From a virus: 64,000 bases of DNA. Positions within the stretch are counted from its first letter, which is position 1; every line of letters begins with the position of its first letter. The DNA lies in IMG/VR virus record IMGVR_UViG_3300003322_000571, positions 1 through 64,000 of that record; one strand, given 5' to 3'. A program made the position numbers and the translations under genes. The notes below the pieces were generated by a model that saw nothing but the letters and a program-made list of their open reading frames with translations, made no database searches and was not told the DNA's origin. Of this stretch, positions 498 through 744 are shown piece after piece.

Positions 498-744
498 TAA
501 GTTGTTGCGTGGGTAGAGACGTTCATCATTTGTTCGACTCAAATATTTCCCGCAATGTACATTTAAGAGACCATCTTGCATGGTGCTGCGATAATCGCCT
601 AAGTGGCTTGGGATGTTGGTTAGTACTCCCTTGAACGACGATCTTGCAGTTAGGACTAATCTGCACGTGTACATTGCGGGAAATCGGGCCTGGTGGCCCA
701 TGGCGGTGTGAAAACCGTAGTTTCTCCGACTTTAACTCAACTTA
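498..744 (+). ncRNA. Y-RNA-like gene 1 with permuted tRNA-like module
   Basis: Outer helix TAAGTTG (498-504) pairs perfectly with CAACTTA (738-744). Directly inside are the two candidate Ro-binding strands, TTGCGTGG (505-512) and CGACTTTAACT (727-737). Between them is a tRNA-like module in permuted order. First comes a T arm (528-544: ATTTG, TTCGACT, CAAAT) and acceptor strand ATTTCCC (545-551). After a 106-nt insert come the other acceptor strand GGGAAAT (678-684) and a D-like hairpin GGGCCTGGTGGCCC. The acceptor pairing extends to a 16-17 bp perfect inverted repeat (545-561 with 668-684). The Y RNA family assignment is inference from this architecture and from a TROVE-domain gene at 63574. 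Confidence 0.6.

Follow-up and report, generated by a model that had tools for sequence, protein, structure and literature searches.

Gene 1, a 247-nt element at positions 498–744 of the analysed window (the initial 64 kb of a virus record of 350,089 bp), is probably a phage Y RNA similar to YrlA and built as a permuted tRNA mimic, which would act as a tether or decoy bound to Ro60. Y RNAs of the YrlA type have been described from bacteria and from some phages. YrlA itself, the bacterial Y RNA-like RNA, corresponds to Rfam family RF02553 and has a crystal structure (PDB 6CU1; Chen et al., 2014). Phage Y RNAs were already known; what is new here is a subtype with a long closed acceptor and an anticodon-like hairpin, as well as the array to which this subtype belongs, where the arm through which the Ro stem connects to the tRNA mimic varies. 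This single phage has seven or more distinct Y RNAs, and each of them would present another portion of a tRNA to the Ro60 protein. With these natural variants one can ask which tRNA surface is important and what it captures. Within it, gene 1 isolates one variable, a closed acceptor longer by about one helical turn and conserved in three phages. The coordinates of all features are given in Table 1.

Table 1. Features of gene 1, other Y RNAs of the phage and associated genes (window coordinates unless indicated).
Feature	Position	Strand	Evidence or relation
tRNA-Pro(CGG)	426–497	+	Abuts gene 1; neighbour conserved in L040 and L054
Gene 1 (Y1), Y RNA, 247 nt	498–744	+	Fold z −4.0; orthologs in L040 and L054; covariation
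Basal (outer) stem, 5' strand UAAGUUG, partner 738–744	498–504	+	Fold; paired in 3/3 orthologs, two-sided changes
Ro-type motif, 5' strand UUGCGUGG	505–512	+	Also in Y2–Y7 and in TROVE-encoding phage contigs
Inner Ro stem, 5' strand AGAGAC, partner 720–725	515–520	+	Fold; ortholog alignment
T-arm AUUUG-UUCGACU-CAAAU	528–544	+	Covaries in L054 ortholog
Acceptor 3' strand plus extension, 17 nt; acceptor proper 545–551	545–561	+	Repeat; architecture scan; alignment
106-nt insert in acceptor loop, this phage only	562–667	+	Absent from L040 and L054; no relative; no fold above chance
Acceptor 5' strand plus extension; acceptor proper 678–684	668–684	+	Repeat; architecture scan; alignment
D-arm GGGCC-UGGU-GGCCC	686–699	+	Fold; covariation
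Anticodon-arm-like hairpin GCGGU-GUGAAA-ACCGU	703–718	+	Fold; L040 stem changed on both sides
Inner Ro stem, 3' strand	720–725	+	Fold; ortholog alignment
Ro-type motif, 3' strand CGACUUUAACU	727–737	+	Fits consensus CGnYUUnnWCU
Basal stem, 3' strand CAACUUA	738–744	+	Fold; ortholog alignment
Y2, canonical permuted Y RNA, Leu-type D-arm	931–1082	+	Ortholog L040 2340–2487 (−); R2 E 8.8e-12
Y3, canonical permuted Y RNA, 8-bp closed acceptor	1178–1320	+	Ortholog L040 2570–2715 (−); R2 E 1.4e-21
Y4, unpermuted tRNA shape, free 7-bp acceptor ends, Ro stem replacing anticodon arm	1586–1716	+	Covariation with L040 and L053
Y7, short Y RNA, tRNA-Lys-like anticodon stem-loop UUUGA-CUCUUAA-UCAAA in Ro stem	35288–35372	+	R2 E 1.7e-5
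Y6, hairpin Y RNA, 1.06 kb upstream of Ro60 gene	62447–62513	+	R2 E 3.3e-5
Ro60/Rsr (TROVE + vWA) gene	63574–64000, on to 65250 of the record	+	PF05731 E 7e-21; VWA_2 E 3e-6

Fold of gene 1 and its relation to Y RNAs

The original prediction described permuted tRNA parts joined by a perfect stem of 16–17 bp, and this was borne out by the analysis. The inverted repeat 545–561/668–684 is 17 nt long and 100% complementary, its arms are 106 nt apart and it is flanked by the T-arm and the D-arm. It is one of six inverted repeats of at least 12 bp with a gap of at most 200 in the 64 kb, and no repeat of 17 bp or more appeared in 20 dinucleotide shuffles of the window. In a scan for a 5-bp T-arm followed by a helix starting from the next base and by a D-arm with GG, with G-U pairs allowed, the full architecture with an 18-bp helix was found at gene 1 only, and 40 shuffles reached 8 bp at most. 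The whole element has a minimum free energy of −85.3 kcal/mol (z = −4.0), and its predicted fold contains the T-arm, the long stem, the D-arm, the hairpin at 703–718 and paired ends. The acceptor, however, had been assigned to the innermost seven bases of the stem, which is the wrong end. The acceptor pairs (545–551/678–684) abut the T- and D-arms and lie farthest from the insert, whereas the pairs closest to the insert are an extension of ten further pairs, after which the 106-nt insert begins. As proposed, no plausible gene is present in the insert; the only long frame that covers it is antisense (ORF 309–701, minus strand) and also crosses the tRNA-Pro gene. A sequence scan revealed no promoter-like site in or near gene 1 that would split the two halves, and one weak terminator-like hairpin (598–612) was at background level.

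Three independent lines support the Y RNA reading, namely a TROVE protein, a recurrent Ro motif and a covariance model. The Ro60/Rsr gene is encoded in the same record, about 63 kb from gene 1 and not adjacent to it. The N-terminal 142 aa of its product had no match in IMG/VR. The Ro-type internal-loop motif is formed by UUGCGUGG and CGACUUUAACU, located between the outer and inner stems of gene 1, and it is also present in six other RNAs of the phage (Y2–Y7), being common on both strands to gene 1, Y2, Y3, Y5 and Y6. It recurs at 931–1082, 1178–1320 and 62447–62513, at 349904–350021 of the record and in other phage contigs. As the motif pattern alone matched 37 contigs, which is near chance by estimate, only matches with a Y fold or a T-arm were used. 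A TROVE gene was found in 12 of the 18 contigs whose motif match has one of these features and in 1 of the 17 with a chance-like match; because contig sizes were unequal between both groups, this association is support and not proof.

For the covariance model (R2), only canonical Y RNAs from other phages were used. It matched the window at 1177–1321 (E 1.4e-21), 927–1086 (E 8.8e-12), 1642–1752, 62443–62517 and 35288–35372, and it also recovered the three RNAs that precede TROVE in an isolated phage, Xanthomonas phage Olaya; the match of gene 1 itself was weak (E 0.012). The three Olaya RNAs match the Rfam YrlA family (RF02553) with E values of 5e-12, 5e-9 and 5e-5, below the gathering score, and in the alignment with YrlA their order is basal stem, T-arm, closed acceptor hairpin and D-arm. 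No match to RF02553 at E ≤ 5 was obtained for positions 300–1100, which is a weak test since the recognised YrlA RNAs of Olaya are also below the gathering score. Likewise, Rfam searches of gene 1 at gathering and relaxed thresholds gave just the neighbouring tRNAs and chance-level matches.

Gene 1 shares with YrlA an end-to-end basal stem, the order of T-arm, closed acceptor and D-arm inside that stem, the mimicry of tRNA and a Ro60 gene in the genome. The ends pair at 498–504/738–744 and 515–520/720–725 around the Ro motif, forming a putative Ro60-binding stem. On the other hand, YrlA has a closed acceptor of 6 bp with a 3-nt loop and the reported length range of YrlA-type RNAs is 90–150 nt (PMC8394870), whereas gene 1 has a 17-bp closed acceptor with a 106-nt loop and a total of 247 nt, carries an extra anticodon-like hairpin, is 63 kb away from the Ro60 gene and has no Rfam match. 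The Olaya Y RNAs (L106 5309–5925) have the same arm order and GUUACUUC after the 5' Ro strand, but their acceptors are of 6–8 bp, they have no anticodon-like hairpin and they lie directly beside TROVE, unlike gene 1. A basal stem interrupted by a bulge or internal loop for Ro60 is also found in the Y RNAs of vertebrates and Deinococcus radiodurans (PMC4726728), although those of vertebrates lack a tRNA-like module and the sequence motif of both is just loosely similar to that of gene 1.

Orthologs, covariation and the acceptor insert

Two orthologs of gene 1 were identified, one of 148 nt in a 183-kb contig (L040 2730–2877, minus strand) and another of 159 nt in a 237-kb contig (L054 2411–2569, minus strand). 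The search model consisted of gene 1 minus its insert plus the L040 sequence, so the 172 bits of L040 belong to a sequence inside the model; the L054 copy, which is outside it, was found at E 2.3e-10. No TROVE gene was found on these two contigs, which may be fragments. Both orthologs are located after tRNA-Pro genes, the L054 copy directly so. The L040 array is syntenic. A Ser tRNA, a Y5-type RNA and a pair of Pro tRNAs come first, and an ORF separates them from the counterparts of gene 1 and Y3; after a Glu tRNA come those of Y2 and Y4, followed by the ORF found after Y4 in the window too.

In a hand alignment of the three phages every helix is kept in both orthologs, 123 of 123 pair cells being standard-paired. 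Two-sided changes occur in 18 of the 41 pairs (five in the outer stem, three in the inner stem, two in the T-stem, five in the acceptor, two in the D-stem and one in the last hairpin). When the window was compared with L040 alone over 45 pairs, each side, 5' and 3', had changed in 15 pairs, with 13 pairs in common (hypergeometric p 1e-7). The helix boundaries were chosen by hand, which biases pair counts towards structure, yet the breadth of the two-sided changes in these sequences would be hard to explain by boundary choice. That gene 1 is a chance arrangement, or a pair of decayed tRNA halves between two genes, could be thought of because odd tRNA-like remnants are found nearby (e.g., 1770–1822). 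The shuffles, the covariation across three phages and the conserved synteny speak against it, and with the orthologs refuting it we give this explanation practically no weight. The label of a Y RNA-like gene holds instead, on the basis of the Ro motif common to the Y RNAs of the phage, the phage Ro60 gene, the two covarying orthologs and the YrlA arm order.

The closed acceptor has 17 bp in all three phages, with a tip loop of 3–6 nt in the two orthologs, whereas the other Y RNAs have a closed acceptor of at most 8 bp, or none, and loops of 2–17 nt. Since the 17-bp acceptor is paired in all three orthologs, the long stem is a conserved property of the subtype. Both this conservation and the YrlA-like arm order agree with the proposal that gene 1 is a permuted mimic of tRNA whose acceptor stem has become longer. 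In this mimic, which comprises the T-arm, the closed acceptor, the D-arm and the anticodon-like hairpin, the tRNA is open where the variable arm would be, and its acceptor end is closed. As a consequence of the closed acceptor, neither aminoacylation nor a CCA end is possible.

The order of a T-arm half, an intervening sequence and a D-arm half, together with a 7-bp acceptor, is also that of the circularly permuted tRNA genes of some algae and archaea, in which the 3' half lies upstream of the 5' half. Gene 1 could then lose its insert and be rejoined at the anticodon into a working tRNA. We consider this very improbable. Those genes mature into tRNAs, whereas the acceptor of the orthologs, lengthened to 17 bp and closed by 3–6 nt, has no space for mature ends, and the ends of gene 1 pair in the Ro motif and form the Ro stem. 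In addition, a 7-nt anticodon loop is not conserved (the loop is GUGAAA in gene 1 and CUCAUAA in the L054 counterpart of the 703–718 hairpin), and a normal tRNA-Pro adjoins gene 1.

The insert had been regarded as an extra domain on the acceptor end, to be looked for in relatives, and this idea did not find support. It takes the place of the 3–6 nt loop of the L040 and L054 orthologs, from both of which it is missing, and it folds no better than shuffled sequence (z +0.68). No relatives of it were found in IMG/VR, in phages or in the rest of the record, and the exact insert-junction pattern had no match in IMG/VR. A functional third domain binding protein or RNA might still be displayed at the tip of a perfect stem that the insert does not disrupt. 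However, its absence from both orthologs, its z value, the lack of any similar sequence and the variation of acceptor loops among the other Y RNAs make such a domain unlikely. Because those loops vary (2–17 nt), the site tolerates insertion, and the 106-nt insert is, among the sequences compared, a private addition at that site. An assembly error is possible in a metagenomic record, yet it is unlikely given the perfect arms at either side of the insert.

Further searches were also performed. A degenerate Y1 pattern matched only L040 and L054 in IMG/VR, and its single match in bacterial and archaeal genomes was a coding false positive. With the pattern GGTGTGAAAACCNTAGT only L040 was real, the other matches looking coding and being without upstream arms. 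For TTTCCCGCAATGTAC, 11 stretches in IMG/VR were judged to be chance matches, and none of the scanned loci had the architecture. Finally, no DNA similarity to gene 1 was found among 50,697 phage records.

The Y RNA array and the possible role of gene 1

The Ro stem is attached to different tRNA arms in the different RNAs of the array. In Y2 and Y3 it occupies the position of the anticodon arm and the acceptor is closed. In Y4 it occupies the same position and the acceptor is open, the order being free acceptor ends, D-arm, Ro stem with a small loop cap and T-arm; Y4 is a circular permutant of YrlA. Relatives of Y4 are found in L040 (about 1607–1738, minus strand) and in L053 (1441–1571), the latter immediately upstream of a Ro60 (TROVE) gene; in the three RNAs, whose acceptor sequences all differ, 21 of 21 acceptor cells are paired. 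In gene 1 the T-arm, the D-arm and the anticodon-like hairpin are retained and the Ro stem is at the variable-arm position. An additional arrangement is seen at L040 2000–2118 (minus strand), which is called as tRNA-Met by ARAGORN; there the D-arm, the anticodon arm (CAU) and the T-arm are in normal order inside a Ro stem that stands in for the acceptor. Y RNAs with an anticodon stem-loop in the Ro stem are 35288–35372 (Lys CUU), L040 2000–2118 (Met CAU) and L045 6823–6948 (minus strand; loop CUAAUAA).

These arrangements could correspond to a modular Ro60 system, with a single type of Ro-binding stem combined with a tRNA mimic through an arm that differs among the RNAs, giving a panel of tethered decoys or recruiters against host factors that target tRNA. 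We put this forward as a tentative idea that is rather doubtful at present. If it were true, each RNA would show a different tRNA face. No description of such modular joining was found in the openly accessible literature on bacterial Y RNAs.

In the mechanism that we propose for gene 1, the basal stem would bind the ring of the phage Ro60 protein and the tRNA-shaped end would recruit or occupy a factor that recognises tRNA. Candidates for this factor are host exonucleases (PNPase, for instance), modification enzymes and nucleases that cut tRNA. During infection the RNA would present its tRNA surface as a tether or decoy. The proposal is made by analogy with YrlA. In D. radiodurans a Y RNA serves as the tether between Rsr and PNPase, and in Salmonella YrlA is a modification substrate of DusA and TruB (PMC8394870). 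YrlA has also been proposed as a competitive inhibitor or decoy of an anticodon nuclease (PMC7790460), and TROVE proteins of jumbo phages have been grouped with RNA repair (PMC7824862). In this phage and in L054 gene 1 abuts tRNA-Pro, and consequently its 5' end may come from the maturation of the tRNA-Pro 3' end.

A variant of this proposal is that the same RNA is mainly a Ro60-bound decoy for host enzymes cutting tRNA at the anticodon or at the acceptor and T-arm, and not a PNPase tether. The varied tRNA surfaces of the array, including the Lys (35288–35372) and Met (L040 2000–2118) anticodon stem-loops, the two RNA ligases and the CCA-adding enzyme encoded by the phage and the decoy role suggested for YrlA (PMC7790460) are in favour of it. 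However, the Salmonella anticodon nuclease did not cut YrlA (PMC7790460), and we regard a predominant decoy role as a reasonable possibility that falls short of being probable.

Genomic setting of the phage

The record belongs to a tRNA-rich jumbo phage, for which ARAGORN predicted 30 tRNAs within the window and another 22 within the final 13 kb of the record. The final 64 bases of the record (L029 13026–13089) are a tRNA gene with its 3' end cut off, and the T-arm of this tRNA opens the window (1–36). As a tRNA gene spans both ends of the record, the genome is probably circular or circularly permuted. Phage XacN1, whose DNA resembles that of this phage around the ORF at 1846, was found to have neither TROVE nor the Y motif, and RtcB was absent from the phage and from the three other contigs checked.

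The window encodes a CCA-adding enzyme-like protein (22948–24021), a peptidyl-tRNA hydrolase 2 (61142–61558), an RF-1-domain protein (47392–47919) and a YqeY protein (2063–2506), which constitute a large translation and tRNA toolkit. The two RNA ligase genes (PF09414) are at 69143–69739 (plus strand) and 309586–310059 (minus strand) of the record, the former some 4 kb downstream of the Ro60 gene. NAMPT/NAPRTase (12683–14170), NADAR (16968–17576) and ADP-ribosylglycohydrolase (58762–59766) genes, all of them in the window, form a possible NAD+ salvage or counter-defence set.

Other structured RNAs were also observed. A permuted tmRNA gene of the two-piece type lies at 304537–304906 of the record (L027 6537–6906, minus strand; Rfam beta_tmRNA 126 bits and tmRNA_permuted 112 bits), and a GOLLD RNA (207 bits) at 330097–330508 (L028 12597–13008, plus strand). 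Finally, two further tRNA-like pieces are located close to gene 1. The sequence at 754–854 has a good T-arm and acceptor and an odd middle, with no ARAGORN call and a weak tRNA-Sec match (18.5 bits), and the short piece at 1770–1822, with a T-arm and an acceptor strand and without D- or anticodon arm, is perhaps a decayed tRNA or another small mimic.
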